A stretch of 64,000 nucleotides of DNA from Candidatus Harrysmithiimonas galli (GTDB lineage Bacteria > Bacillota > Bacilli > CAJFEE01): contig CAJFEE010000011.1 of NCBI GenBank assembly GCA_904373265.1, forward strand, positions 18,383-82,382, in the 5' to 3' direction. Positions 40,838 to 57,664 of this stretch are shown one piece after another. The stretch's first letter is position 1; each line of letters starts with the position of its first letter. The notes beneath the pieces were generated by a model. It did not search any database. It was given only the letters and a program-made list of their open reading frames with translations, and had not been told where the DNA came from. The translations under genes were made by a program, and so were the position numbers.

Positions 40838-41713
40838 TTATGCGCTTTTTTCTTCTACTTTCTTCATATCATTTTCCTTTTTTGCTACCAAGGCAAGTTT
40901 GGGAACAATCCGCAACGCATTATCATTGCAATGATCCACGCATTTGCCGCATAACATACAGTCTCCAGCCGTAACATAAATCGCACCTTGATCAACTACT
41001 GGCACCAATATTTCCGAATCCGCAAGACATACCTGTTTACAATGATTACAATGGATGCATTTATCATGGTCTATTTTTACATGAAAATTCCCCGCTTTAC
41101 CCACCACTTGGTAAAAACCACCGATTGGACAAAGCGAACGACACCAAATACGTGTTGCAAAAAACACTTCGGCAATCACAATAGCAATAAAACTCCAAAC
41201 GCCAAGACCCGTTGCAAAAATAATTCCTTTCATCACTGTACCGATCGGATTAAACATTTCATAAACTGGAAGACTTGAAGCAAATGATAAAGCAAGAATA
41301 ATTAACGCAATCCATATTTTGGTATAACGATTGACTTTGACATCGTATCGTTTTTTAATTTTAAACAACTTCCGCAGCCTATTGCAAAACTCTAAAATTA
41401 GGTTTACAGGACAAACCCAACCGCAGAATACACGTCCACGAATGAGAAAATAAAATGCAAAAATAGTTACAGCTCCAATTAGCAAAACAGTATGAACTGT
41501 TTTAGAAGCAAAAATAATTTGCAAGGCACCAAAAGGATCGGTTAGCATAATCCCCAAAATTTCCGAGGACGATAAAGTCCCGAAAAAAAAGTTTTCACCC
41601 TCGATTTCAGCCAAGAAAGGCGTTAAAAATAAGAGCAGGACAGCAAATTGAACAATTCTTCGTACAATCGTCCACTTTGGCAGCTTTTTTGAATGATTTT
41701 TCATTCCAATCAC
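40838..41713 (-). CDS. napH: NapH-like quinol dehydrogenase membrane ferredoxin
   Basis: VFCGWVCPVN, WCRSLCPIGG, CIHCNHCKQVC, CMLCGKCVDHC; multiple TM. Confidence 0.88.
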   Translation of the reverse strand: MIGMKNHSKKLPKWTIVRRIVQFAVLLLFLTPFLAEIEGENFFFGTLSSSEILGIMLTDPFGALQIIFASKTVHTVLLIGAVTIFAFYFLIRGRVFCGWVCPVNLILEFCNRLRKLFKIKKRYDVKVNRYTKIWIALIILALSFASSLPVYEMFNPIGTVMKGIIFATGLGVWSFIAIVIAEVFFATRIWCRSLCPIGGFYQVVGKAGNFHVKIDHDKCIHCNHCKQVCLADSEILVPVVDQGAIYVTAGDCMLCGKCVDHCNDNALRIVPKLALVAKKENDMKKVEEKSA

Positions 41714-41737
41714 CCTTATATCAAAATTTTATGTTTA

Positions 41738-42301
41738 CTATGTTGCTCGACTGGGTCGAATAACCAATGCCTTCGGGTCATGAATGCAGGCTGAAACACA
41801 ATAGCCACAACCCGTACATTTTTCTTGATCTACAACCGGCTTTCTGTCTGGGAATGACAACGCTCCTTCTATCGGGCAGGCTCGCATACAGTAATCACAC
41901 ATCACCTGCTGATACGCAACGCAATTGGAAGGTCGTACAGTCACTTTTGCCAATGGCTGATACGCTTCTTCGCTTTTTCTAAGCGCACCTGTTGGACAAA
42001 CCTCTATGCATTTCTCACAAAAGCTACAAGGTGCCTCATTCAATCGCATATAAGGTGTATTCATTAGAACTGTGCCTTTTTTATGACCAAATAATGCGAT
42101 TGTTTCTGTGGGACAAATCATTTTGCATGCATTACAGCGCGTGCACAATGAGAGAAATTCAATTTCATCCACTGCACCTAACGGTCGGATAAAATCACGT
42201 TCCTTTTTTATTTGAGGACCGACTACCTCAGCTAAAAAACGGATGGAAGATTTCCAATTCAGTCTTAGAAAATCACGACGATCCATTTCTTCTGTCATCA
42301 T
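41738..42301 (-). CDS. napF: NapF-like [4Fe-4S] ferredoxin
   Basis: Four CxxCxxCxxxC clusters; N-terminal MDRRDFLRLNW twin-Arg-like sequence. Confidence 0.8.
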   Translation of the reverse strand: MMTEEMDRRDFLRLNWKSSIRFLAEVVGPQIKKERDFIRPLGAVDEIEFLSLCTRCNACKMICPTETIALFGHKKGTVLMNTPYMRLNEAPCSFCEKCIEVCPTGALRKSEEAYQPLAKVTVRPSNCVAYQQVMCDYCMRACPIEGALSFPDRKPVVDQEKCTGCGYCVSACIHDPKALVIRPSRAT

Positions 42302-42564
42302 TAAACTACCTTATTCTTCAATGTTGGATCATCTTCAAAATTACAATAGATTAGATTCACTGCAAGAACTCCTGTAATTTGAATAAAATCCTTTGTCAAG
42401 TCATAGCTTGCATCGAGTGTTTCAGCCTCAACTGTAATAATAATTTTATAACCTTCTACATGATGTACTTCTACACCTTCACACTCTCCTAACTTTTCAG
42501 CGACCTGCTTGACTTTATCCTGTACGGTTTCCACTACAATACTTGAAATGACCATTTCTTTCAC
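42301..42564 (-). CDS. napD: NapD-like nitrate reductase maturation chaperone
   Basis: ISSIVVETVQDKVKQVAEKLGECEGVEVHHVEGYKIIITVEAE. Confidence 0.85.
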   Translation of the reverse strand: MKEMVISSIVVETVQDKVKQVAEKLGECEGVEVHHVEGYKIIITVEAETLDASYDLTKDFIQITGVLAVNLIYCNFEDDPTLKNKVV

Positions 42565-42584
42565 TCCTAAAAGGTATAAAAATG

Positions 42585-42618
42585 ATTACCTGCCATAAGT
42601 TTGTTCATGACAGGTAAT
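42585..42618 (-). terminator. Hairpin with T-stretch between napB and napD (intra-operon attenuator candidate)
   Basis: ATTACCTG/CAGGTAAT 8-bp stem; minus strand continues CATTTTTAT. Confidence 0.5.
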
Positions 42619-42626
42619 TCACTGCC

Positions 42627-42989
42627 TTATTTTTGAATGACCGGATGACAAGTAATACAAACTTCACGCGCTGGTGCTACACCTTTGGAAGTCGTTTCGT
42701 CCACAAAATGATTCTTTGGCACTGTTGTATCACTTGCATATTGATTGGCTGCACTTTCATTATGACATACCAAACATGCGTTATAATTTGACCCCCCCTT
42801 TTCCCAACGTCCTTCATGGTCTGAAGGTTGTAAAAGCGGTGCACCTGTCAAAAATTCTCCATTATTAATATCTTTAGCGGCTTCTGTATCAGAACTACTA
42901 AATATGTTGGAAAAATTAAATACACTGGCAACAATCATTCCGACGAATAAACAAACAACAAATACGAGAATACCACTCTTTTTAGACAT
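42627..42989 (-). CDS. napB: NapB-like dihaem cytochrome c
   Basis: CLVCH and CITCH haem-binding motifs, N-terminal TM anchor; directly after napA. Confidence 0.85.
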   Translation of the reverse strand: MSKKSGILVFVVCLFVGMIVASVFNFSNIFSSSDTEAAKDINNGEFLTGAPLLQPSDHEGRWEKGGSNYNACLVCHNESAANQYASDTTVPKNHFVDETTSKGVAPAREVCITCHPVIQK

Positions 42990-43004
42990 GATGTTTTCCT
43001 CCTA

Positions 43005-45566
43005 TTAAACTTTCTCAATACGGACACAAGTTTTCTTGTAATCCGGTTCTTTTGAAAGCGGGCAATAATAATCATGTACCGCTAAGTTAATCAATGTTTC
43101 CTCTGCAAAGAATGGAGCAAATACCATACCCGGATTGGGTTGTGTACGTCCTGCTGTCGAAACCTTAATTTCAAATTCGCCATGGCGGGAAATCACTTTA
43201 ACCTTGTCACCATTTTTAATGCCAAGTTTATTACAATCCTCTCGATTCATATCCAATAGTGCTTCTGGTAACGCACGATTTAATTCTGGTACACGACGTG
43301 TCATAGAGCCAGAATGCCAGTGTTCAAGAAAACGACCTGTACAAAACCAGAATGGGTACTCTTCATCCGGAGATTCTGCCGGTTCCTCGTACGGACGGAA
43401 AACCGCACTTGGCTTTTTATCAGCTGATTTATAGAAAGATACATCATTTGCCAAACCAACATCGCCATACGTTTCCACACCGATTTGGTCATAGCCTTCT
43501 TCCTGCTTACCATAGGAGAATCGCCATTTTGTTTCCAACCATTGACCATTCACCTCACGAACTGGCCAAGTCATACCATTATGACTTAAATACTCATCAT
43601 AAGGCGCAAGCTGTTTATTTTCCATTTTTAATCCTGATTCAAACTTACCTTCTGTGTTTTTATTAATGGCTTGTGCAGCCGGTTTTAATTCTGGATTTGA
43701 GAAAATACGATATTCTTCAAATAACAAACGATTGGTTTTTCGTGCATCCCCGACAAAATCATCTTTTTCCTTATCCCATACAAACCCAAACAACACATCA
43801 AACGCAGGCTTATCACCGATTTTCACATCGGCAAGCACTCGTTTCGCCACTTGAACAAAAATCCATCCGTCCCATTTTGCTTCACCCATTGGCTCCACAC
43901 ATTTTTCAAAAACTGCAGTCCGGCGCTCGGCATTTCCAAATTGCCCTTCACGCTCTACCCACATCGCTGCTGGGAGTACAACATCGGCATATTGTGCGGA
44001 TAATGTAGGATATACCTCATTGACAACAATAAATCCGTCAATAACTCCTTGATATTCAGGTTTTTTCGCCAAAAAGCGTGTCAAATTCGGCATAGAAACC
44101 GCCCAATTGTTTGAAGCAGTCCATAAGAAATCTATATTTCCTTTGGAAAGCTCACGGAAAATTTTTACCGTATGGAAACCAGGAGTCTCAATCGGATCCA
44201 AATACCCTTCTGGTAAATCCCAAACCGCCTCTGTAAATCGACGATGCTGTGGGTTGTTAACCACCAAATCTGCTGGCAAACGATGAGAGAACAAACCAAC
44301 TTCACGTGCTGTACCACACGCAGATGGCTGACCTGTTAATGAGAATGGTCCACATCCAGGTTTTGCAATTTTACCAACTAAAAAATGAATATTGTAAATA
44401 TTATGATTCATCCATGTGCCACGCGTATGTTGGTTAACACCCATTGTCCATAAAGACAAGACTTTACGGTTTGGATTGGCAAACTCTTTCGCCAGCTCTT
44501 CAATATCACTTGCAGGAACACCTGAAAGCTCGGAAACATATTCAAGCGTGTACTTACTCATCATCTTTGCAAATTCCGCAAACTCAATATTCCAAACATC
44601 TCCACCCTTTTGACCAATCTCCGATGCATCATATCCGTCCTCATAAGCATGACTCAAATTCTCTGTTCCTGCTTTAAATTGTACATGATCATGAATAAAC
44701 TTCTCATCATACAGCTTATTTTGAATAATATAGTTACAAATGGCATTGGCGATCGCTAAGTCTGTCTGTGGCTTAAAAAGTAAAACCTTATCCGCTGTTT
44801 CAGAGGTACGTGTACGAAGCGTTGTAATATCATAATGACGTACCCCTTTATTGCTTACCTTACGTGCTGTCAAACGTGAATACAATACAGGATGCGCCTC
44901 AGCCATGTTTGCACCCCATGTCACAAATACATCCGCTTCATCTAAGTCGGAATATGAACCAGCAGGCTCATCAGTTTGGAAAACATTCATAAAGGCAACA
45001 ACAGCACTTGCCATGCATAAGCGCGCATTGGGATCAATATTGTTACATAATAACCCAGCTTTCCAGAACTTAGACATAATATATCCTTCTGTAATGGCCA
45101 TTTGTCCTGAACCCCAAAATGCAATACGAGATTTATCTTTTGCATGTGCTTCTTTTAATTTTTGTGCAACAAGATCCAATGCTTCATCCCAAGTTGCTTC
45201 TCGAAATCCATCCATCGAACCTTTTGTTGTTTTATCATCACGAATCAACGGTTTGGTTAGACGATCTTCTCCATACATAATCTTTCCTAAATAATAACCC
45301 TTCACACAATTTAGACCTTTGTTTGAGCCATTATCTGGATCACCGATTGTCGCAACCAATTTCCCATCTTTTACACCACATAATACACCACATCCCGTTC
45401 CACAAAAACGGCAAACCGCTTTTTTCCATTCATCTGGTTGCACTGCACTATCTTGTTTGGCTGATGTAGAAGATGATTTTGAACTGCTACAGCCCGCTGC
45501 CGCTAAGGCAAAGGATACAGCCGCTGCTTTTAATAAAGATCTTCTTGATAATTCCAAGGTAAGCAC
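43005..45566 (-). CDS. napA: Periplasmic-type nitrate reductase catalytic subunit
   Basis: SRRSLLKAAAVSFALAAAGC Tat-lipobox; CRFCGTGCGVLCGVKDGKLVAT..., NCVKGYYLGKIMYGEDRLTKPL. Confidence 0.95.
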   Translation of the reverse strand: MLTLELSRRSLLKAAAVSFALAAAGCSSSKSSSTSAKQDSAVQPDEWKKAVCRFCGTGCGVLCGVKDGKLVATIGDPDNGSNKGLNCVKGYYLGKIMYGEDRLTKPLIRDDKTTKGSMDGFREATWDEALDLVAQKLKEAHAKDKSRIAFWGSGQMAITEGYIMSKFWKAGLLCNNIDPNARLCMASAVVAFMNVFQTDEPAGSYSDLDEADVFVTWGANMAEAHPVLYSRLTARKVSNKGVRHYDITTLRTRTSETADKVLLFKPQTDLAIANAICNYIIQNKLYDEKFIHDHVQFKAGTENLSHAYEDGYDASEIGQKGGDVWNIEFAEFAKMMSKYTLEYVSELSGVPASDIEELAKEFANPNRKVLSLWTMGVNQHTRGTWMNHNIYNIHFLVGKIAKPGCGPFSLTGQPSACGTAREVGLFSHRLPADLVVNNPQHRRFTEAVWDLPEGYLDPIETPGFHTVKIFRELSKGNIDFLWTASNNWAVSMPNLTRFLAKKPEYQGVIDGFIVVNEVYPTLSAQYADVVLPAAMWVEREGQFGNAERRTAVFEKCVEPMGEAKWDGWIFVQVAKRVLADVKIGDKPAFDVLFGFVWDKEKDDFVGDARKTNRLLFEEYRIFSNPELKPAAQAINKNTEGKFESGLKMENKQLAPYDEYLSHNGMTWPVREVNGQWLETKWRFSYGKQEEGYDQIGVETYGDVGLANDVSFYKSADKKPSAVFRPYEEPAESPDEEYPFWFCTGRFLEHWHSGSMTRRVPELNRALPEALLDMNREDCNKLGIKNGDKVKVISRHGEFEIKVSTAGRTQPNPGMVFAPFFAEETLINLAVHDYYCPLSKEPDYKKTCVRIEKV

Positions 45567-45580
45567 ACCTCCTAAAATAA

Positions 45581-46177
45581 TTAAAATAATCCTTCTATCT
45601 CTCGGGGTTTGATACGAATTGCAACGGGTTCACTGACAACACAACGTTCCTCACAAATTCCACAACCCACGCAATACTCTTTGTTAATGATCGGTTCAAA
45701 TATGGTATGAATATTGTCACCTTCACGTAGTTTATAATTGATGGTAATCGCTTGATCGATCAATGGACAGGCACGATAACAAACCTCACAGCGATTCCCT
45801 TTTAACGCAATACAATTTTCACGATCTAATACGGCTACACCCATTTTGACATCCGAAACCTTCTTGATTCCAGAAAGTGCCTCCGTCGGACAGACCTCTA
45901 CACAAGGGAAATCCTCACATAGCTGGCAAGCTCCCTCACGTGGTACAATATACGGTGTCCCAATCCCTACACCATGTGATGCATCGCCTACCTTAATGAC
46001 ATCATGTGGGCAGGCCTGTACACATTTATCACATCGAATACATTGTGCCAGAAAGCTATCTTCATCTGAGGCACCCGGCGGACGCAATACACTTCTTGTC
46101 CCCTTCTTCATCAAACTCAATAGTTGGTAACCTGCCAAACCACCAACCAAAACTTTTAATCCTGTTAAAAAGTTCAT
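45581..46177 (-). CDS. napG: NapG-like ferredoxin
   Basis: CIRCDKCVQACPHDVI, CQLCEDFPCVEVCPTEAL, CVGCGICEERCV; start set at MNFLTGLK. Confidence 0.88.
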   Translation of the reverse strand: MNFLTGLKVLVGGLAGYQLLSLMKKGTRSVLRPPGASDEDSFLAQCIRCDKCVQACPHDVIKVGDASHGVGIGTPYIVPREGACQLCEDFPCVEVCPTEALSGIKKVSDVKMGVAVLDRENCIALKGNRCEVCYRACPLIDQAITINYKLREGDNIHTIFEPIINKEYCVGCGICEERCVVSEPVAIRIKPREIEGLF

Positions 46178-46313
46178 ATTCAAAACCACCTTCTCCATAT
46201 CCAAAAAGACGTATTGAACCTTTGTTCGTTCGTCCAAAAGAGAGATCTCCACCCCCAAAATACAACTATACTTTTGTCAGGTGGAGATACTTCATTTACA
46301 TCCCGCTCTTATT

Positions 46314-47762
46314 TTATTGTGGAGCTACATTTGGGAAGTAATCTGTAAGTGCATGATCACGTTTTTTCGTGCTGTCTTGCTCTGCTTGAACGGCAGCAAT
46401 TGTTTTGTCAATTTCAGCGTTCAATTCATCTAAATCAACACCTTTTTCTACCAGTGCTGCAGTTGCAATTTCAATTGCTTTTAAGGATGCAACGGTAGAA
46501 GTTTTACAGTTTTGCATACCGATTTGTGGTGCATGGAATCCGGCACCATTTTCAGCTGCCACATAATCCCAATACATTTGTCCTTTACGCACATATTGCT
46601 GTGCTTCTGCAATAATTGATTGATCTACCTTAGATGTAATCATTTTATTTACATAATAATGTGCTTTGGCAGACGCTTCCTCTGCTTCATGTAAAGCAGC
46701 AATATGGTTATCTTGAATATCTCCAACCAGTCCTTTTAATTGGTCAACTGTTTTATCAGAGTGACAACCTTGACAAGAAATCTCAACTGTTTTCAATGGA
46801 GAAGTCCATTGGTGAGAAGAGAATTTCTTACCATCTTGAACCATATAAGGCATATGACAATCTGCACAAGCTACACCCGCTTTATAATGTGGCCCTTGTG
46901 AGAATGTTTCAAAATCCGGATGCTGCATTTTAATAATGCTGGTACCTGAAATTGTACTTACATAGTCTTTTGCAAACGAACCGTCACCATTTGTTGCAGA
47001 TTTAGACTCATAGTACTCCCACATTGCATCAGCGCTTACACCTTTATCCCATGGGAATGTTACAGTTTTGCCATCATCAGCAAAATAGTACTCCACATGA
47101 CATTGGGCACATACTAAAGTACGCATTTCGTTTTTAGACGCTGTTTTCCAATCAATGCCAATCGCTTCAAATCCAGTTTCAGCATATTGGCGTGTAATAC
47201 GCAATTCCATAGTTTGTGGATCATGACAGTCAGAACACCCAATTGGAGAATGTCCCATTTCTTCCGCTTTTGGCCACACATCATTTAAAAAACTTCCAGA
47301 GTAATAATCTGTACCCATTGTTTCAATCAATGTTGGAACCGCACTCGATTTACAAGATAAACAAGCTCCTACTTGTTTTTCGTTATCACCGATACGAAGT
47401 GTACGATTTTCACCACCTGTATCTTCTAAAGCAAATGGATGTCCACGATCTTCAGCATAGTCAAGCGAGAAAGCATAACCTTGCCATAAAATCGGTAACA
47501 ACGGCTCTTTGTCATCCATAAATTTGGAACGGCGAACAGAACCGCCATACTTTGTATCTGATTCATCGTTTGCTGCAGCATAATAACTTTCATACTGTAA
47601 TGGATATAAATCTTTAAACGCTTCATTATTAATTGTATCCGCAGGTAAGCCAGTTGAGGCCACTTTGTTTTCCGATGCGGTTTCATCATTGAAACAACCG
47701 GAAAGTGCCAGTGCCAAAACCACCGCAGATGAAATCAATAAACTCTTTACTTTGGATTTCAT
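46314..47762 (-). CDS. nrfA: Ammonia-forming cytochrome c nitrite reductase, catalytic pentahaem subunit
   Basis: CLSCK active-site haem plus CSDCH, CAQCH, CADCH, CQGCH; lipobox LALSGC. Confidence 0.96.
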   Translation of the reverse strand: MKSKVKSLLISSAVVLALALSGCFNDETASENKVASTGLPADTINNEAFKDLYPLQYESYYAAANDESDTKYGGSVRRSKFMDDKEPLLPILWQGYAFSLDYAEDRGHPFALEDTGGENRTLRIGDNEKQVGACLSCKSSAVPTLIETMGTDYYSGSFLNDVWPKAEEMGHSPIGCSDCHDPQTMELRITRQYAETGFEAIGIDWKTASKNEMRTLVCAQCHVEYYFADDGKTVTFPWDKGVSADAMWEYYESKSATNGDGSFAKDYVSTISGTSIIKMQHPDFETFSQGPHYKAGVACADCHMPYMVQDGKKFSSHQWTSPLKTVEISCQGCHSDKTVDQLKGLVGDIQDNHIAALHEAEEASAKAHYYVNKMITSKVDQSIIAEAQQYVRKGQMYWDYVAAENGAGFHAPQIGMQNCKTSTVASLKAIEIATAALVEKGVDLDELNAEIDKTIAAVQAEQDSTKKRDHALTDYFPNVAPQ

Positions 47763-47782: not shown

Positions 47783-48298
47783 TTATTTTTCACTTGCACG
47801 CTCATTCACACTTGTATTTGCAGGCTCTTTAAATTCATCAGTCTTAAAAAATTGTTTTCCATGCGGCATACCTCTATGACAATCTGTACAGAGTTCTTTT
47901 GCATCATGCGCTACATCTGTTAGTACATTTGAATGACAGCTACGACAATTCTCATCTACAACTTCAATTGTCCAATCGGTTGCCTGCATCACATCTGGGA
48001 TTTTACTGCTTGCAAAGTTGTTGTAATAAATATGTCCCAAACCTACCCGAGCTTTGGATACCAACTTGCCAACAGTACTTTCATGTGGCAAATGGCAATC
48101 ATTACAACTCAACTGTGCATGTGAAGAATTCAACATAGTGGCCACAGGTGCCTTCATAATGTGACAACTTGCACAAAATTCCGGAGAATCTGTGTACTCC
48201 AGAGTTTTTTGCGCGCCCACAATCAAGACAATCCCAACCACCAGACCAACGAGTGCAACCATCCATAACTTGCCTTTATTTTCTTTTACCTTACTCAT
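47783..48298 (-). CDS. nrfH: NrfH-type tetrahaem cytochrome c quinol dehydrogenase
   Basis: CASCH, CNDCH, CRSCH, CTDCH plus N-terminal TM; precedes nrfA. Confidence 0.95.
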   Translation of the reverse strand: MSKVKENKGKLWMVALVGLVVGIVLIVGAQKTLEYTDSPEFCASCHIMKAPVATMLNSSHAQLSCNDCHLPHESTVGKLVSKARVGLGHIYYNNFASSKIPDVMQATDWTIEVVDENCRSCHSNVLTDVAHDAKELCTDCHRGMPHGKQFFKTDEFKEPANTSVNERASEK

Positions 48299-48972: not shown

Positions 48973-49007
48973 AATACCGAGCCCCAAATTCTTGGGGCAC
49001 CGGTATT
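48973..49007 (-). terminator. Terminator at the end of the ccm operon
   Basis: AATACCG-A-GCCCCAA/TTGGGGC-A-CCGGTATT with T-run on the minus strand. Confidence 0.85.
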
Positions 49008-49008
49008 T

Positions 49009-49653
49009 CTATTGATATTGATCAACAAGAATCTCTAGATTTCGGGCAGTCGTTTCACCAATAATTCGCTTTTGCACAATCCCATTTTTATCAATGATAA
49101 TGGTTTCTGGCTGACCAGTGACACCGTAATCTTTCATAATTTCACGCCTCTTATCAAACAGATAAACTGCATTTGAATCATGCCGATCAATAAATGTCTG
49201 GACGGTTTCTTGCAATTCACCAACATCAACAATAAAAAATTTCGCTTTTTGGGTTTCTTCCATTTTTTGATGGAATTGCTCCAGTTCATCTGCTTCCGCT
49301 ACGCAAGGTTCACACCAAGTTGCAAAAAAGTTCAAAACGATAACCTCACCTTTATAATCCGCCAGATCAAACATTTCTTTATTGATATCTTCCAATTGAA
49401 AAAACTTTGCCGGATCTCCTTCGTTAATTGCACTGGAGGCACTTCGCAGCCCGAGTGCCATAAAAATAATCAAGACAATAATGACAGCCAGAACAATGAC
49501 AACCACCCATGTTTTTGGGCCCTTTTGCACAGCTTGCTCTTCTTTAAAAGTTTCTTCCTGCAAAATTGTTTCCTCCTTATTTCCTGGAATCACTTTAGAT
49601 GCCAAAGATTTGGCAGACAGTATCGTTTGACCGACAAACAAAATTCCTAGCAT
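49009..49653 (-). CDS. Membrane-anchored thiol-disulfide oxidoreductase (ResA/CcmG-like)
   Basis: TM anchor, VLNFFATWCEPCVAEADELE thioredoxin-fold active site. Confidence 0.9.
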   Translation of the reverse strand: MLGILFVGQTILSAKSLASKVIPGNKEETILQEETFKEEQAVQKGPKTWVVVIVLAVIIVLIIFMALGLRSASSAINEGDPAKFFQLEDINKEMFDLADYKGEVIVLNFFATWCEPCVAEADELEQFHQKMEETQKAKFFIVDVGELQETVQTFIDRHDSNAVYLFDKRREIMKDYGVTGQPETIIIDKNGIVQKRIIGETTARNLEILVDQYQ

Positions 49654-49678
49654 CCAATATGGTCTAAAACTTTGCGAC

Positions 49679-49816
49679 CTAGCTCTCCATATCTTTTAAA
49701 AACTGGATCTCTTTTAAAATCCTATCTTGTTTTTTATTTAGATAAAATAAATAGCCTGTATACATCAGCCAAGCAATTCCATAAACTGAACCAACAAAGA
49801 GTAAAGTATTATCCAT
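49679..49816 (-). CDS. CcmD-like small membrane protein (45 aa)
   Basis: MDNTLLFVGSVYGIAWLMYTGYLFYLNKKQDRILKEIQFLKDMES; single TM then basic helix, directly after ccmC. Confidence 0.65.
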   Translation of the reverse strand: MDNTLLFVGSVYGIAWLMYTGYLFYLNKKQDRILKEIQFLKDMES

Positions 49817-49827
49817 TTTTATTTCTC

Positions 49828-50568
49828 CTATCCTAAAATTTTTTCTTGCAGATGTTCTTTTGCCTGCTGCACAGCAATACGTGCCTTTTCGATATAAACA
49901 CCTTTTTGTAAAAGTACAAGATAAATCAGTGTGAATGTAATGAAAGAAAATATCATAGTAAAAAGCATATTCCCCTCCATTCCACCACCACCTTTTCCAA
50001 GCACGACTGGATGAAGCTTGGCATTCCACCAACGAATGGCCATAAAGACAACTGGTACATCAAGCGCACCAATAATTCCAATAACCGCAGACATTCTCGC
50101 TTTCTTATCCCAAGGGGCATCCATATGACGAACAACCAGATAAGCAACAAAAATAAACCACAAAATCAAAGTGGTCGTCAGCCGTGGCTCCCATTCCCAC
50201 CAGGTGTTCCAGCTTGAACGCGCCCAAAACATTCCAGATAAAAGCGCAAATGAAATCAGCATAACACCCAGCTCTGCACTGGCTCCCGCATAGATGTCAT
50301 AAATTCTTTTTCTTGTGATTAAGTAAGCAGCACCACAAATTGCAACTACAATAAAAGATAAAAACGCTGTCCATGCTGCTCCAACGTGAAAATAAAAAAT
50401 CTTTTGAACCGGTCCCATCACCTTTTCAATACTTGAGTAAATAAAAATTAAATATAAAAGAACAAACATCATCAATGTAGAAATCCACATCAAAGCCTTA
50501 TGATATTTTGGAACTGGCAGCAGTTCATCCACATATTGTATTGCATCGGTCTGTTTGCTTTCTTTCAT
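49828..50568 (-). CDS. ccmC: Cytochrome c maturation haem transporter/handling protein CcmC
   Basis: KIFYFHVGAAW, WW-rich haem motif SSWNTWWEWEPRLTTTLILWF, six TM. Confidence 0.93.
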   Translation of the reverse strand: MKESKQTDAIQYVDELLPVPKYHKALMWISTLMMFVLLYLIFIYSSIEKVMGPVQKIFYFHVGAAWTAFLSFIVVAICGAAYLITRKRIYDIYAGASAELGVMLISFALLSGMFWARSSWNTWWEWEPRLTTTLILWFIFVAYLVVRHMDAPWDKKARMSAVIGIIGALDVPVVFMAIRWWNAKLHPVVLGKGGGGMEGNMLFTMIFSFITFTLIYLVLLQKGVYIEKARIAVQQAKEHLQEKILG

Positions 50569-50571
50569 CCG

Positions 50572-51252
50572 TTACACCTCCTGAATGTACTCATACAGTA
50601 AAAAACCGGCAGCAAAAATAATTACGTCATATGCACCAACCAATTGAATCCACGATATTGCTGATGAAAGATTTTCAGGGCTATTTAAAAATACCTTTGT
50701 CGCTTGGGTGACACCAATTAAAAGTGGGCTGACGATTGGAAACAATAAAAGCGGCAAAATCATTTCTGCACTTTTGGTTTGCGCAGACAATGCCGCAAGC
50801 AATGTGCCCGCACTAATAAAACCAAATGTTCCAATCAACAGTACAAGTATAAAATGACCTAAATAAGACAAATCAAATTTATAATCAAATAACAAGAACA
50901 GAAACGGAATCGCAATAAGCTCCACAATCAAAAGCAAAATAAAATTTGCCAAACATTTGCCTAAATAAACAGATGATGCATCAATCGGAGCAATATTTAA
51001 GGCAAATATCGTATCATTTTTTGATTCTGCAACAAATGCCCGATTCAAACCAAGCATTCCACCAAATACAACAAGCACCCAAATCAATCCTGGAATCAAT
51101 GCTTGTACATTTGCTCGCATCGGATCAAAAGCAAAGCTAAACACCAACACAACAAGCATGGAAAAAATTAACATAGCACCAATGGTTGCTTTTGTTTTCC
51201 ATTCCGTATATAAATCCTTTTTGGCAATCTTTAGTGCATCTTTGATTAGCAT
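50572..51252 (-). CDS. ccmB: Haem exporter membrane subunit CcmB
   Basis: Follows ccmA; six TM; LLLFPIVSPLLIGVTQATK region. Confidence 0.9.
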   Translation of the reverse strand: MLIKDALKIAKKDLYTEWKTKATIGAMLIFSMLVVLVFSFAFDPMRANVQALIPGLIWVLVVFGGMLGLNRAFVAESKNDTIFALNIAPIDASSVYLGKCLANFILLLIVELIAIPFLFLLFDYKFDLSYLGHFILVLLIGTFGFISAGTLLAALSAQTKSAEMILPLLLFPIVSPLLIGVTQATKVFLNSPENLSSAISWIQLVGAYDVIIFAAGFLLYEYIQEV

Positions 51253-51971
51253 CCGGCTTTCCCTCCCTCTACGACTTGTTTGTATCTTTCGTAAAGAATT
51301 GCTGCATCACCTTCAGCTACAGAAAAATCATCTGCAACTCTTCCACCTTTAATAATAATAAAACGATCGCAAATTTTTGCCGCCTGCATAAAATCATGGG
51401 TTACCATTAAAATCGTCGCTTGATCTTTTTTCATTTCTTCAATCACTTGGTTCAAAATTTCAACTGCACTTTGATCCAAACCAGTATGTGGTTCATCCAG
51501 CAATAAAAGCTGCGGTCGATGAATCATTGCACGTGCAATTGCAATTCGTTGCATCATACCACGTGAAAAAGAACGAACCGGCTCGTGTGTAAACAGCTTT
51601 AAACCGACTTGGTCAATCAGCTCTGAAACACGAAGTTCCAAATCAGGGATATGATAAATGGAACCAAAAAATTTGAGATTCTCATAAGGGGAAAAATGGT
51701 CATACACCATACTGGCATGTGGCAAAAAGCCGACCATTTGCTTCAGGGCTGTTGCATTTTTCCGAATATCTTGACCAGCAATGGTTACTGTACCAAAAGT
51801 TGGCTTCATAATCATTGCCAGCACCTTCAAAAGTGTACTTTTTCCGGCACCATTTGAGCCAAGAATTCCAACCGTTTCGCCTTTATTTATTTTTAACTGT
51901 ATACCGCGCAAAATGGTTTTGTCTCCAATTCTTTTGACAAGTCCGTTCACTTCTATCATTACATGTTCCAC
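51246..51971 (-). CDS. ccmA: ABC ATPase CcmA
   Basis: GSNGAGKSTLLKVLA, FSRGMMQRIAIARA, LLLDEPHTGLD; overlaps ccmB. Confidence 0.9.
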   Translation of the reverse strand: MEHVMIEVNGLVKRIGDKTILRGIQLKINKGETVGILGSNGAGKSTLLKVLAMIMKPTFGTVTIAGQDIRKNATALKQMVGFLPHASMVYDHFSPYENLKFFGSIYHIPDLELRVSELIDQVGLKLFTHEPVRSFSRGMMQRIAIARAMIHRPQLLLLDEPHTGLDQSAVEILNQVIEEMKKDQATILMVTHDFMQAAKICDRFIIIKGGRVADDFSVAEGDAAILYERYKQVVEGGKAGC

Positions 51972-51973
51972 CT

Positions 51974-53023
51974 TTAGTCAAGAAACTTATTCAACTCTTG
52001 ATTGACTTGTACAAGCAATTGCTTATAAGCGAGATTTTTCTGTACAAACTCTTCTTCACTTACTTTAGAGGATTCACGCTTTTCTTCCAGCTCAACAATT
52101 TTTTCCATAATGGCGCGTTTTCGCTTCACAAGCTGCTGAAATTCTTGCTCCTCTTTATTTTCCAAAACTTTTTTCTCTTCCTGACGACGCTTAGCTGTAA
52201 AATAACCGAAAAATGAAATTCCTGCTACAACGATCACACTCATTAAAATTAAGAAAATATGCGGATCAAAATTGCCTAGCACCGATGTTTTCCATAGACG
52301 GATATGTCCAGCTGTATGAAAGGCCGGACTGTTGCGTGTAACTTGATTGGTTGTACTTCCAGAATTCTCCGTCGTATCGCTGTTTGTACCTGAGCCGTCC
52401 GTATTTTGCGCAGCCGCTGCTTCTTTTTGAATTTGCTTAAATTTTTCAAGTCCGTTTTCTTTTAACTGATAATGAATTTCCAGCGTTTGTCCAGCCCGAA
52501 CCTTTTCTGCCACATAAGAATGTACATTGTTCTCGCTGCCTGCATCCTGGATTGTGATTTCCCCCACAAATGTAACATCCTGTACCTCAACTGGGAATTG
52601 CAGAAGAAGCAAAGAAATATCTGTCGGGAACTGATAAGAAAGAACTGCTTCCCGATTATTTAATGAAAATTCACAAACATAGCGCCCTTGTACTCCCGTT
52701 TCACTATTTGCCTCTACTTTTACCGGGACGACAAACGTTTGATTGGTAAATTGTGCAAGTGTCGGATCAATACCTGGATCAATATTCTCATAACCGGCTG
52801 GTAACGGCAATTCTACATTGCCCTGAAACATACTGGTACCTTGATTTAAAATTTGGTAAAAACCAACAATTTCAATCGAATTTTCGCTTTGTGGTGAGAT
52901 GATAAGTGCTTGTGTCTTCGTTTCAAGCGTTGCCGTATTTGCTGATACCCCTGGCAACGGCAGCACAAATAATAAGGAAAAAAGCAAACAGAATGCTATC
53001 CATAATCTTGCCTGTCGTTTCAC
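51974..53023 (-). CDS. Uncharacterised secreted-domain/TM/coiled-coil protein in the ccm operon
   Basis: Signal peptide, about 200-aa beta-rich ectodomain, one TM (HIFLILMSVIVVAGISFFGYF), C-terminal charged coiled coil. Confidence 0.7.
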   Translation of the reverse strand: MKRQARLWIAFCLLFSLLFVLPLPGVSANTATLETKTQALIISPQSENSIEIVGFYQILNQGTSMFQGNVELPLPAGYENIDPGIDPTLAQFTNQTFVVPVKVEANSETGVQGRYVCEFSLNNREAVLSYQFPTDISLLLLQFPVEVQDVTFVGEITIQDAGSENNVHSYVAEKVRAGQTLEIHYQLKENGLEKFKQIQKEAAAAQNTDGSGTNSDTTENSGSTTNQVTRNSPAFHTAGHIRLWKTSVLGNFDPHIFLILMSVIVVAGISFFGYFTAKRRQEEKKVLENKEEQEFQQLVKRKRAIMEKIVELEEKRESSKVSEEEFVQKNLAYKQLLVQVNQELNKFLD

Positions 53024-53389
53024 TTATTTGCCACCCTCTTTTCTTCTTGCCAATTCTTCTTCGATTTCTTTTTCAACTTGGCGCATCATTTCATCATCAA
53101 TACTTTCAAGATTGGCAACTGGTTCTCGGATTTCCATTAAATCCGCTGCTTCCTTTTCATGCTTTTTCTTTAATTCTTCGTAGTCTTCTTTTGTTACTTT
53201 TCCCATTCGATATTCAAGTTCAAGCTCGTTTAATGTTGTGAACACAACCTCTTTTAATGCTTCTTTACTTGGCTTTTCCTTTTGTATACTACGTACAAAC
53301 GGAACTTGTCCGGAAAACAAAGGCATAACTGTAATAAACAAAGCGACCACAACAAGTACTACGGTCAATATAAATCCGATAACGTCCAT
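53024..53389 (-). CDS. CcmI N-terminal-domain-like membrane protein
   Basis: N-terminal TM then TLNELELEYRMGKVTKEDYEELKKKHEKEAADL. Confidence 0.6.
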   Translation of the reverse strand: MDVIGFILTVVLVVVALFITVMPLFSGQVPFVRSIQKEKPSKEALKEVVFTTLNELELEYRMGKVTKEDYEELKKKHEKEAADLMEIREPVANLESIDDEMMRQVEKEIEEELARRKEGGK

Positions 53390-53400
53390 TTTTTCACATC

Positions 53401-53964
53401 CTAAAGAAACTTTTTGCGCTCATCTTCAATCATTTGGCGAATGACATCCGATTCTGCCTCATTTTCAGATAATTTAACATTCTTTTCTTTTTCTTGTGTA
53501 CTTCCACTTTTTTTCACCCAAATACGAACCGCTGCAAAAATTACAACGGCCACAACAGCAATAAGAAAAAATGGGATCACATAAGCAGAAAGGGTATTCA
53601 AACTTCCATGTGGCTTCAATAAAATTGATTCCCCGTAATTTTCTACAAAATAATCCAAAATTTCATCCGTTGTTTTTCCTTCATTCAACAACTCAACTAT
53701 TTTATCCTTGGCTGTTCTTGCAAGCGGACCACTTGGGCAGGCGTAAAGCGAACTGCAACTATCCTGACTGTGAAGCTGCTCCGCAACCGCCTTAAACTCC
53801 GGTGTGTAATACTCCGGTCGGTTTGGATCAAAATCCAACGGATCCGCTTCTTTTGCATATCCATGAAGCAGCATACTTTGTCCAAATAAAGCCATCAATA
53901 CAATGAAGCTAAGTAAAAAATATTTTTTCAAAATAAACAGCCTCCCATCTCTTACTTGAGACAT
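53401..53964 (-). CDS. CcmH-like protein with atypical cysteine motif
   Basis: CcmH-like DKIVELLNEGKTTDEILDYFVENYGESILLKP and C-terminal TM, but SCSSLYACPSG in place of LRCxxC. Confidence 0.75.
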   Translation of the reverse strand: MSQVRDGRLFILKKYFLLSFIVLMALFGQSMLLHGYAKEADPLDFDPNRPEYYTPEFKAVAEQLHSQDSCSSLYACPSGPLARTAKDKIVELLNEGKTTDEILDYFVENYGESILLKPHGSLNTLSAYVIPFFLIAVVAVVIFAAVRIWVKKSGSTQEKEKNVKLSENEAESDVIRQMIEDERKKFL

Positions 53965-53973
53965 GAATCTAAA

Positions 53974-55959
53974 TCAGTTCACTTCTTTTTGCACTCCAGT
54001 ATATCTTGGTGTTACATTTCCATAGCGTCCATGCCAAACGGCAAAGATGGACCCAATAACCAAAATTACTGCACCAATCCACATATACATCATCAATGGA
54101 ATGGTCTTAATGTGTAAAGTTGCACTTCCATCACTTTCCCAACCGTTCAGTGTCACATAAATATCTTCCTTCCAATTGGAATGAAAAGCAACCTCAGTTG
54201 AGGGGGTTTCCCAAGTTTGGTAGAAAATTTTCTCCGGATTTAACGTATCAATTAATTGATCATCTTTATAAACCTCCAAGGTCGCAAAAACAACCGTGTT
54301 TAAATCCTCTTGCACCTCTTGCAAACTCGTATATTTAAAAGTATAGTCACCCAGCTCCATACTTTCATTCGGAGCCAAGGTCTGCATCTTCTCCATTTCA
54401 TAATTTTGCGAACCAACAATGGCAATAGCCATAAATGCAATTCCAATGTGAACCAAATATCCGCCATATCTTCTGCGATTTCGGATCATCAAACGATACA
54501 TCGCAGTAAAAATATTTTCTTCTGTCATTTTCTTACGGGCAAGCGTTCCGACAATAAATTCTTTAATATGTGTAAACAGCATAAAGAAAGCAACCGTAAA
54601 TCCAATTAATGGCCAAACTTGTGTCACACCGCCGAAAACCGCAAGACAGATCACAATCACAAGAGTGATCATTCCCGGAACCATAATGCTTCTTGCCAAC
54701 TTTCCAATTGTTGATTTCTGCCATGCGATGAGTGGACAGATTGCCATCAATAAAACCAGTGCTACTAGAATCGGTGCACTGACCGCATTAAAATACGGGA
54801 TACCAACAGTGATCTTTGTACCCGTCAAAGCCTCAGAAATCAGTGGGTAGACCGTTCCCCAAAGTACCGCAAATGCACAACCAACCAGCAATAGATTATT
54901 CAATAAAAAGCTAGATTCCTTAGACAAATAGGATTTAAATTGCCCGCTGTCCCGACGAATTAAGCTTAAGCGGCTAAACATGACATACATGGCTCCGATC
55001 ACCGCAATGGTCATATAAATTAAGAAATACGTACCAAGTGTAGAATTTGAAAATGCATGAACGGATGTTAAAATACCGCTTCGTACTAAGAATGTACCAA
55101 ATAAAGTTAACGCATAGGATAAAATAATCAATGCGATATTCCAAATTTTCAGCATGTTTTTCCGTTCTTGAATCATGACTGAATGTAAAAATGCGGTTGC
55201 TGTTAACCAAGGCATAAAGCTTGCATTTTCAACTGGGTCCCAGGCCCAATAACCACCCCAACCCAATTCAACATAGGCCCATTGACCACCTAAAATATTT
55301 CCTAGACTTAAAAACAACCAAGCAATCAGTGTCCAACGTCTGGTCATCTTAATCCAGAAGTCATCCATATTACGCAATAAAAGTGCGGTCATTGCAAAAG
55401 CAAATGGAACCGCCAAACCAACATAACCCATATACAAAGTTACTGGATGTGCCACCATACCTGGATTTTGCAGCATTGGATTTAGACCATAACCTTCCTC
55501 TGGTATATAATCCAACAAGGTAAACGGTTGTGAAACAAATGAGAGAATAAAGAAGAAAAACACCGCGTTTGCCATTAAAATAGCCGTAACATAAGGTACA
55601 TAAGGTGTTCCCTTCAATTTTCTTGAGAAAATAATTACAACAATATAAAATGTAAGCAAAAAGTTCCAAAGCATTAAAGAGCCTTCATTTCCTGCCCATA
55701 ATGCCGAAAGCTTATATAAAATGGTTAAATCTGAACTTGTATAATCAAATACATACTTCACTTGAAAATTCGATGTTGCCAAAAAATAAAGCATCACAAC
55801 TGTTGCCGTTGTCATGGATAAGAAAACACCAATTGATGCACCTTTACCGGAATTAATCAATTTCTGGTTTTTCTTAACAATTCCAAAAACAAGTACTGCC
55901 AAAGCATATATTGATAACAGAAATCCAAGATATATGGATACATTTCCTAAAATATGCAT
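53974..55959 (-). CDS. ccmF: Cytochrome c haem lyase subunit CcmF
   Basis: WAGNEGSLMLW, LGWGGYWAWDPVENASFMPWL (WWD), about 15 TM, 661 aa. Confidence 0.95.
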   Translation of the reverse strand: MHILGNVSIYLGFLLSIYALAVLVFGIVKKNQKLINSGKGASIGVFLSMTTATVVMLYFLATSNFQVKYVFDYTSSDLTILYKLSALWAGNEGSLMLWNFLLTFYIVVIIFSRKLKGTPYVPYVTAILMANAVFFFFILSFVSQPFTLLDYIPEEGYGLNPMLQNPGMVAHPVTLYMGYVGLAVPFAFAMTALLLRNMDDFWIKMTRRWTLIAWLFLSLGNILGGQWAYVELGWGGYWAWDPVENASFMPWLTATAFLHSVMIQERKNMLKIWNIALIILSYALTLFGTFLVRSGILTSVHAFSNSTLGTYFLIYMTIAVIGAMYVMFSRLSLIRRDSGQFKSYLSKESSFLLNNLLLVGCAFAVLWGTVYPLISEALTGTKITVGIPYFNAVSAPILVALVLLMAICPLIAWQKSTIGKLARSIMVPGMITLVIVICLAVFGGVTQVWPLIGFTVAFFMLFTHIKEFIVGTLARKKMTEENIFTAMYRLMIRNRRRYGGYLVHIGIAFMAIAIVGSQNYEMEKMQTLAPNESMELGDYTFKYTSLQEVQEDLNTVVFATLEVYKDDQLIDTLNPEKIFYQTWETPSTEVAFHSNWKEDIYVTLNGWESDGSATLHIKTIPLMMYMWIGAVILVIGSIFAVWHGRYGNVTPRYTGVQKEVN

Positions 55960-56051
55960 GTCATTTCACCTTTCAATCTAAAATGTCATCGCCAATTCCA
56001 AAGAAAAAGAGGCAATCTTTCCTATACGCCTCTCTTCTTTTATTTTTTCTC

Positions 56052-56552
56052 TTAATTTTTTGTCTCTTCTGATCCTTCAGCTGGTGTAAAAGTATGCGTT
56101 TCTGGATCATACGTGCCATTCATTTGTTCATGCATGTTTGCATCGTATTGATCCTCTTTTCCTTCATACTTAGAAGGACATTTTGTTTTTACTGATTCTG
56201 CAATAAATAAACCAGCCTCTGTTTCTGATGGTGCACCTTCAATAATACAAATAATTTCATCTGTAAAATTATCTGGTTTCACACCATTGTACCGCACTTT
56301 CAATTGTGAGCCATCTTGTTCATCTTCAACCATAAAAGTCAGCTCCAAATTCTGTGCATCCCATTCGATTGTTTCCGCCATTAACAAACCTTCAGTTGTC
56401 ACATACTTATTTGTGTAATCTTGCTGATTGTCCAATATTTCTTTAATCTCAATCTCTACGCCCGCCGAACCAGTTGAAGCACCAATTAAAATGAAAAGAA
56501 TCGCTGCTGCAATCACTCCGGCACCAATAAACATTTTCTTGTTTTTTGACAT
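56052..56552 (-). CDS. ccmE: CcmE-like haem chaperone, CXXXY variant
   Basis: N-terminal TM, OB-fold-like domain, ...AESVKTKCPSKYEGK where the HXXXY motif is expected. Confidence 0.85.
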   Translation of the reverse strand: MSKNKKMFIGAGVIAAAILFILIGASTGSAGVEIEIKEILDNQQDYTNKYVTTEGLLMAETIEWDAQNLELTFMVEDEQDGSQLKVRYNGVKPDNFTDEIICIIEGAPSETEAGLFIAESVKTKCPSKYEGKEDQYDANMHEQMNGTYDPETHTFTPAEGSEETKN

Positions 56553-56593
56553 TTCGTTTCCTCCTATCAATATCATTCATGATTTATATATTT

Positions 56594-57664
56594 TTAAAGC
56601 AACTTACTCATTTTGCTGTCATACGTTTTTTGATCAATCTCTCCGGCCAGAAGCTGTGACCGAAGCTTTTTCTTTTCCTCCTCAGTCGTAGATTTTATTC
56701 CCTTCTTCACTTTTTGCGGCTCTGCTTCGATGTTCTTTTGTTGCTGTGATGAAACCTCAGATGTCTTTTTCTTATAAAGGATGGCCACGATAATTAACAC
56801 AGCCGCTAAGATAACCGAAGCTGAAATCAAAAGCGCTCCAATTGTACCAATCAACGGCTTTGTCACCGCAGTATTTGAGGTTGCATCTCCCGATTCCCCT
56901 GATCCATTATTTAACATGCTATGTGTTTCATCAGTCGGAATATTCCATTCTCCATCATTAATCATTTCCTGTGTAGATTTATTATCAGCTTTTGTGTATG
57001 AAATTGGGAAATTCTTTTTCTCACCGGCTTTGACTTCCTCAAATGTATACCCATAACGCAATGTGCCATAGGGTGTCAGTGAAGTTTGTGCACCCTCCAT
57101 ATCAATCAAAAATGCGTCCGATCCAGCCGGTTGATCAATTAAAACACCCAATTGCTCTGCTGCAACTGGTGAAGTCAATGAAAAGGTAAAAGATTTATTC
57201 CCCTCTTTGCTGGTTTCAATCGGATTATAGAAAAATTCTAATACATAGCTATAAACCTCATCGGTTTTTATGCTATAGTTTGGTCTCCAAGTTAAAGTCC
57301 TCGCTTCTTCATCAATTGTATAATCTTGAATCGCTTTTACTTGTGTGGAATCACCTTGGAAATCCCCCAATGTTGTCAACATAAAATTTGTTATATTATC
57401 TGGTAACGAAATGGTTATTTCCTCATTTAATAGCTCCTCATTACCTGTATTTTTAAGATAACCTAGATATGCAACCAAAACATTCGGTGTATCCTCAGGA
57501 TAATCCTCTGGCTCTGTATATTCTGGTGCGATCTGAACAACAAAATTCACATAGGTTAAATCATCAGATAAACCTGCTGCATGGATACGCATTGGTTGCA
57601 CCACGGTTCCAATCCATAAACCAATCATTACAATAAGCATAAATCGGCTTTTTTTCATAATCAT
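56594..57664 (-). CDS. Uncharacterised secreted-domain/TM protein with SHOCT-like C-terminal hairpin, first gene of the ccm operon
   Basis: Signal peptide, beta-rich ectodomain, TM (GALLISASVILAAVLIIVAILY), C-terminal EEEKKKLRSQLLAGEIDQKTYDSKMSKLL. Confidence 0.7.
   Translation of the reverse strand: MIMKKSRFMLIVMIGLWIGTVVQPMRIHAAGLSDDLTYVNFVVQIAPEYTEPEDYPEDTPNVLVAYLGYLKNTGNEELLNEEITISLPDNITNFMLTTLGDFQGDSTQVKAIQDYTIDEEARTLTWRPNYSIKTDEVYSYVLEFFYNPIETSKEGNKSFTFSLTSPVAAEQLGVLIDQPAGSDAFLIDMEGAQTSLTPYGTLRYGYTFEEVKAGEKKNFPISYTKADNKSTQEMINDGEWNIPTDETHSMLNNGSGESGDATSNTAVTKPLIGTIGALLISASVILAAVLIIVAILYKKKTSEVSSQQQKNIEAEPQKVKKGIKSTTEEEKKKLRSQLLAGEIDQKTYDSKMSKLL

Follow-up and report, generated by a model that had tools for sequence, protein, structure and literature searches.

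The window, the whole 64,000-nucleotide stretch of DNA that was analysed, encodes an 11-gene minus-strand operon with the order orfA-ccmE-F-H-I-orfB-ccmA-B-C-D-G (49009-57664), in which all genes are in frame and intergenic spacing ranges from -7 to 92 nt. We consider it probable that this is a complete Bacillota-type System I* operon for cytochrome c maturation, that it is the only such machine recognisable in the genome, and that OrfA and OrfB are subunits of its synthase complex. The core of the operon is known biology: System I* with a CPSKY motif was described in Firmicutes in 2011 (PMC3601427), and System I genes ccmEFHABC linked to nrfHA were reported for Bacillus azotoformans in 2012 (PMC3475470). 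Within the libraries and literature searched, the new part is apparently the conserved accessory pair OrfA/OrfB together with the single-synthase setting. The features of the operon are listed below.

56594-57664, minus strand: OrfA, 356 aa; no family match; conserved upstream of ccmE; AlphaFold2 pLDDT 80
56052-56576, minus strand: CcmE, CXXXY-type haem chaperone (PF03100, E=7e-19)
56166-56180, minus strand: CPSKY haem-binding motif of CcmE, C133-Y137
53974-55959, minus strand: CcmF, holocytochrome c synthase, 661 aa (CcmF_C PF16327, 4e-66; Cytochrom_C_asm PF01578, 2e-34)
55237-55260, minus strand: WWD-type motif WGGYWAWD of CcmF
53401-53964, minus strand: CcmH-like protein without CXXC (PF03918, 1e-17); sole cysteines C70 and C76
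53737-53757, minus strand: CX5C (C70-C76) of CcmH, replacing the canonical LRCXXC
53024-53389, minus strand: short CcmI-like protein, 121 aa, with a transmembrane (TM) helix and a coiled segment (TIGR03142, 26.7 bits, E=5e-6, below the cut-off of 29.3; position conserved)
51974-53023, minus strand: OrfB, 349 aa; no family match; AlphaFold2 pLDDT 86; alignment evidence
52259-52321, minus strand: juxtamembrane motif of OrfB, F-H236-x3-H240-x3-W244-x2-S-...-P254-H255
51246-51971, minus strand: CcmA, ABC ATPase (TIGR01189, 140 bits, above the cut-off of 131.6)
50572-51252, minus strand: CcmB (PF03379, 3e-27)
49828-50568, minus strand: CcmC with a WNTWWEWEPR motif (PF01578, 5e-23; TIGR01191)
49679-49816, minus strand: CcmD-like protein, 45 aa (TIGR04391, 25.6 bits, above the cut-off of 24)
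49009-49653, minus strand: ResA/CcmG-type membrane-anchored thioredoxin, CEPC (C114, C117) (PF00578, 2e-23)
48981-48998, minus strand: terminator-like hairpin 3' of ccmG

An earlier, sequence-only reading of this DNA had listed CcmE, F, H, I, A, B, C, D and a ResA/CcmG protein on this strand between 49009 and 57664, and all of them were matched; the two unknown membrane proteins that it mentioned are OrfA (56594-57664) and OrfB (51974-53023). CcmB, CcmC, CcmE and CcmF score above the Pfam cut-offs and below the strict NCBIfam cut-offs, and the top NCBIfam score for CcmF is that of the NrfE model (TIGR03145, 468 bits), under the cut-off of the model. As expected of System I, CcmA, CcmB, CcmC, CcmE and CcmF are encoded along with CcmD, and the WWD motif is found in both CcmC and CcmF. 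CcmE has CPSKY in place of HXXXY and the system is therefore System I*, as the earlier call of a CXXXY variant had it. Two other hallmarks of System I, a redox-active LRCXXC in CcmH and a TPR apocytochrome-binding domain in CcmI, are missing here; the match to TIGR03142 is limited to the N-terminal part of CcmI, and a Pfam search of this protein returned no TPR family. CcmH and CcmI themselves are encoded, though altered, and the idea that they are missing was rejected. Some Bacillaceae CcmH-like proteins have only one cysteine close to where the redox motif normally lies (GHADHELSTC-like; L045:11959-12456, L046, L047, L050, L053, L054), and in these single-cysteine proteins the usual CcmH disulfide seems impossible. 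The CcmH of Neobacillus, unlike them, is cysteine-rich (CTCGCGQDHYECDPNTC).

The presumed client cytochromes of the operon are encoded nearby. The start of nrfH lies 710 nt downstream of the end of ccmG; nrfH and nrfA are on the same strand, and nap genes lie beyond.

47783-48298, minus strand: NrfH, tetrahaem quinol dehydrogenase, client (PF03264, 3e-19; 4 CXXCH)
46314-47762, minus strand: NrfA, pentahaem nitrite reductase, client (PF02335, 8e-121; 1 CXXCK and 4 CXXCH)
42627-42989, minus strand: NapB-like dihaem cytochrome, client (PF03892, 9e-8; 2 CXXCH)

Nap, NrfHA and Ccm are thus clustered, with the nap run (40838-46258) following nrfA on the minus strand and including NapA-like (43005-45566), NapB-like and ferredoxin-type proteins. 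FNR-like palindromes across the window are not in excess of chance (34 observed against 39 expected), sigma-70-like sites occur only at chance frequency, and an Rfam search gave 0 matches.

In order to see the operon in the context of its genome (2.70 Mb, estimated to be 100% complete), we can turn to the search for resB, resC and ccdA that the sequence-only reading had proposed, which yielded no ResB, no recognisable ResC/CcsA and one CcdA. ResB (PF05140) is absent from the genome and from its family mate, the other genome of the order. ResC/CcsA was not recognised beyond the operon, and the Cytochrom_C_asm (PF01578) proteins of the genome are exactly two, the CcmF and CcmC of the operon. The combination of ResB with ResC/CcsA that characterises System II was accordingly not found in the genome. 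The single CcdA is encoded on another contig, adjoined by a ResA-like thioredoxin. Because there is neither a ResB nor a further Cytochrom_C_asm protein, no cytochrome c maturation machine other than the ccm operon is recognisable, and judging by this gene content the visible cytochromes NrfA, NrfH and NapB must be matured by it. The earlier claim that the Ccm proteins mature NrfHA and NapB is supported by the lack of ResB and of any further CcsA/ResC-type protein. With no recognisable System II, a single CcmF would therefore serve both CXXCH and CXXCK haem sites. In E. coli, haem attachment to CXXCK needs the dedicated NrfEFG lyase; the CXXCK recognition problem could be tested here in a one-synthase system. 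A 2025 review assigns NrfHA complexes to System II (PMC12285233); the window genome has NrfHA with CXXCK and no recognisable System II.

The operon resembles several described systems and differs from each of them. In the System I* of Desulfovibrio a cysteine of CcmE likewise replaces the haem-binding histidine, and the Desulfovibrio operon yields holocytochrome c in E. coli (PMC3601427); however, that system functions without CcmG and CcmH, whereas the window encodes CcmH-like, CcmI-like and ResA/CcmG-like proteins as well as OrfA and OrfB. The streamlined CcmABCEF of Methanosarcina acetivorans shares the CXXXY type of CcmE, but archaeal Ccm systems are without CcmD, CcmH and CcmI (PMC9084895), while the window has counterparts of all three in addition to OrfA and OrfB. 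The ccmEFHABC cluster of B. azotoformans is alike in kind, in its Bacilli host and in its link to nrfHA; it is credited with six of the eight System I proteins, and the six named genes are given an apparent eight-tag range, BAZO_03265-03300 (PMC3475470). The window genome differs in being without System II. CcdA and ResA-like thioredoxins are common to System II of B. subtilis and the window genome, but ResB and ResC are absent from the latter.

Conservation of the gene order suggests that the two accessory proteins belong to the system. Dozens of further genomes show an identical ccm gene order, and it is therefore not a product of chance; the orfA-ccmE-F-H-I-orfB-ccmA-B-C-D architecture is present throughout Bacilli and in many other Bacillota families. 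A full-length CcmF of the operon's type was found in 32 of 399 sampled Bacillota genomes, with ResB co-present in 17 of these carriers and absent from 15. True NrfA is encoded in about 19 of 33 carriers (the 32 and the family mate), the rest having weaker multihaem matches or none, so the occurrence of the system does not depend on NrfA alone.

The sequence-only reading had proposed that this lineage acquired or retained a divergent machine. The CcmF tree that it suggested was built, by a quick method with SH-aLRT support only and without archaeal sequences, and in it the window pairs with its family mate (support 98), the two being sister to Bacillus/Neobacillus (98) within a Bacillota clade (99). 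The part of that proposal concerning acquisition of a divergent machine is not borne out, as CcmF nests in a Bacillota-wide clade and the operon is common (32/399). Recent transfer of the operon from another phylum, archaea or delta-proteobacteria, could be imagined because typical Bacillus use System II and because System I* is patchy in Bacillota (32/399 genomes); the nested position of the window in the tree (98/98/99, archaea not included) speaks against it, and such a transfer was rejected as very improbable.

OrfA follows CcmF closely. It is encoded in 29 of the 32 Bacillota genomes with the operon-type CcmF and in 2 of the 367 without it (Fisher p=2e-38); in one of these two exceptions the ccm region is cut by a contig end and in the other CcmF is a fragment. 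The distances of OrfA and CcmF are correlated across 52 loci (r=0.89; 0 of 1000 permutations). OrfA is missing from many System I* operons of other phyla, and both OrfA and OrfB are missing from several, in Nitrospinota and most Neomarinimicrobia; the pair is therefore not required for the core chemistry. This absence from some System I* operons, together with the lack of a family assignment for either protein, would fit a role of OrfA and OrfB as general envelope or assembly factors that are co-transcribed with ccm and stay outside the maturation complex. However, such a role is hard to reconcile with the strict co-occurrence of OrfA with the operon-type CcmF, the fixed gene positions, the co-divergence with CcmF and the existence of OrfB proteins that carry a fused cytochrome c domain, and we consider it unlikely.

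We examined the predicted structure of the two proteins. OrfA is predicted to consist of a signal/anchor helix, a two-part beta ectodomain, a TM helix (278-296) and a cytoplasmic SHOCT-like tail; it contains no cysteine and two histidines (H28, H248). OrfB is predicted to have a beta ectodomain followed by the His/Trp motif next to the membrane, a single TM helix and a CcmI-like cytoplasmic helical tail. Profile comparison relates OrfA to OrfB (99.2%, a signal that comes partly from TM and tail), and the predicted plan that they share is an N-terminal signal or anchor, a beta ectodomain, one TM helix and a CcmI/SHOCT-like tail end. An iterated OrfB profile pulled in CcmI via the shared tail, and subsequent OrfB counts were made with models ending at the TM helix or with the motif. 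No Pfam or NCBIfam family reaches its cut-off over either ectodomain, and a PDB sequence search with OrfA and OrfB returned nothing significant. In the AlphaFold2 models the ectodomains are predicted with confidence, and among the top PDB fold matches of both proteins are M1 aminopeptidases, with their N-terminal domain, and ribophorin I, a part of oligosaccharyltransferase (best Foldseek E 2e-8 for OrfA and 2e-7 for OrfB). The matches are modest, with a whole-chain TM-score of about 0.4, and beta-sandwich arrangements of this kind are common. One OrfA member has, independently, a weak sequence match to Ribophorin_I (PF04597, E=0.007). Ribophorin I/OST1 and the predicted OrfA and OrfB are alike in having two outside beta domains, one TM helix and a helical cytosolic part, but identity is only about 11% and the likeness is a structural analogy, for substrate presentation.

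The His/Trp motif of OrfB is located immediately outside the TM helix and appears in the AlphaFold2 model as a short helix facing the membrane surface. Among 34 Bacillota proteins H236 and H255 are invariant (34/34 each), W244 is present in 33 and H240 in 30. The ectodomain has been lost in Desulfosporosinus and in a Bacillus/Cytobacillus group, where motif, TM helix and tail are kept; it is therefore dispensable in Desulfosporosinus and some Bacillus, and the motif, as judged from the alignment, marks the conserved core of OrfB within Bacillota. The motif was not found outside Bacillota. The ectodomain extends to Chloroflexota, Spirochaetota, Calditrichota, Actinomycetota, Dadabacteria and others, its gene lying between ccmI and ccmA in most operons examined outside Bacillota, and it was found in none of five genomes with a His-type rather than Cys-type CcmE. 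In Dadabacteria, the ectodomain of OrfB is preceded by a fused mono-haem cytochrome c domain at the N-terminus (L095:12304-13587, L071:12365-14029). A haem- or metal-binding role of the Bacillota motif is putative.

The co-occurrence and co-divergence of OrfA with CcmF, the OrfB-cytochrome c fusion, the conservation of the motif and the fold likeness lead us to favour synthase subunits. By what is known of these families, CcmABCD would transfer haem onto the cysteine of CcmE, CcmE would hand it over to CcmF, and CcmG/ResA with the separately encoded CcdA would keep the apocytochrome thiols reduced. The CXXC-less CcmH may partner CcmF in a structural role, and OrfA and OrfB may be structural subunits of a CcmE/CcmF/CcmH synthase complex. 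The beta domains of OrfA and OrfB could keep the unfolded multihaem apocytochrome in place, or present it, near CcmF, which would be the task of the missing TPR domain of CcmI and, by analogy, that of ribophorin I in oligosaccharyltransferase. The cytoplasmic helical tails, akin to the CcmI arm, would tie the complex together, and the His/Trp motif of OrfB, on the outer side of the membrane, could handle haem or a metal next to CcmF. With CcmH lacking CXXC and CcmI apparently lacking its TPR part, it is a reasonable hypothesis that OrfA and OrfB substitute for CcmH/CcmI functions. A stronger version, in which the OrfB motif binds haem or ferrous iron and the pair replaces a redox CcmH and a TPR CcmI in a distinct synthase architecture, is possible but on balance doubtful; if true, this architecture would be used by many Bacillota and be partly common to several other phyla. 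A 2011 review noted that compensating features of System I* were not found by bioinformatics (PMC3601427), and OrfA and OrfB as subunits would help to explain a System I* with a CXXC-less CcmH and a TPR-less CcmI.

The two proteins might instead serve haem or iron supply rather than the apocytochrome, OrfA loading or releasing CcmE and the His/Trp motif of OrfB relaying haem from CcmC to CcmE. The gene order would suit this, with orfA directly upstream of ccmE and orfB directly preceding ccmA, and so would the resemblance of the OrfB motif to His/Trp haem sites and the extra OrfA copies at a feo operon (L155, L156) and in an OrfA-CcmH-FtrD cluster (L157). However, OrfA has no cysteine, its H28 and H248 do not fit a haem-site pattern, the predictions show no haem-binding fold, and the iron-linked copies are confined to two genera of the sample; we rate a supply role as rather unlikely, and retain the synthase-subunit reading.

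Two genomes of one genus have a further OrfA copy at the head of a FeoB/FeoA gene run for ferrous iron transport (L155:6950-7924, L156:3713-4711), with no ccm genes near it in the stretch examined. Another genome has, besides a full operon, a cluster of OrfA, CcmH and an FtrD-like protein (PF10080) without other ccm genes (L157:5445-7678). The copies beside iron-transport genes suggest another role for OrfA. Outside Bacillota (L076, L094, L109) the tail of OrfA is zinc-ribbon-like and not SHOCT-like. Finally, the CcmG/ResA protein of the window has about 48 residues ahead of its TM helix, more than in related operons, and the annotated start of ccmG (49009-49653) may be too early.
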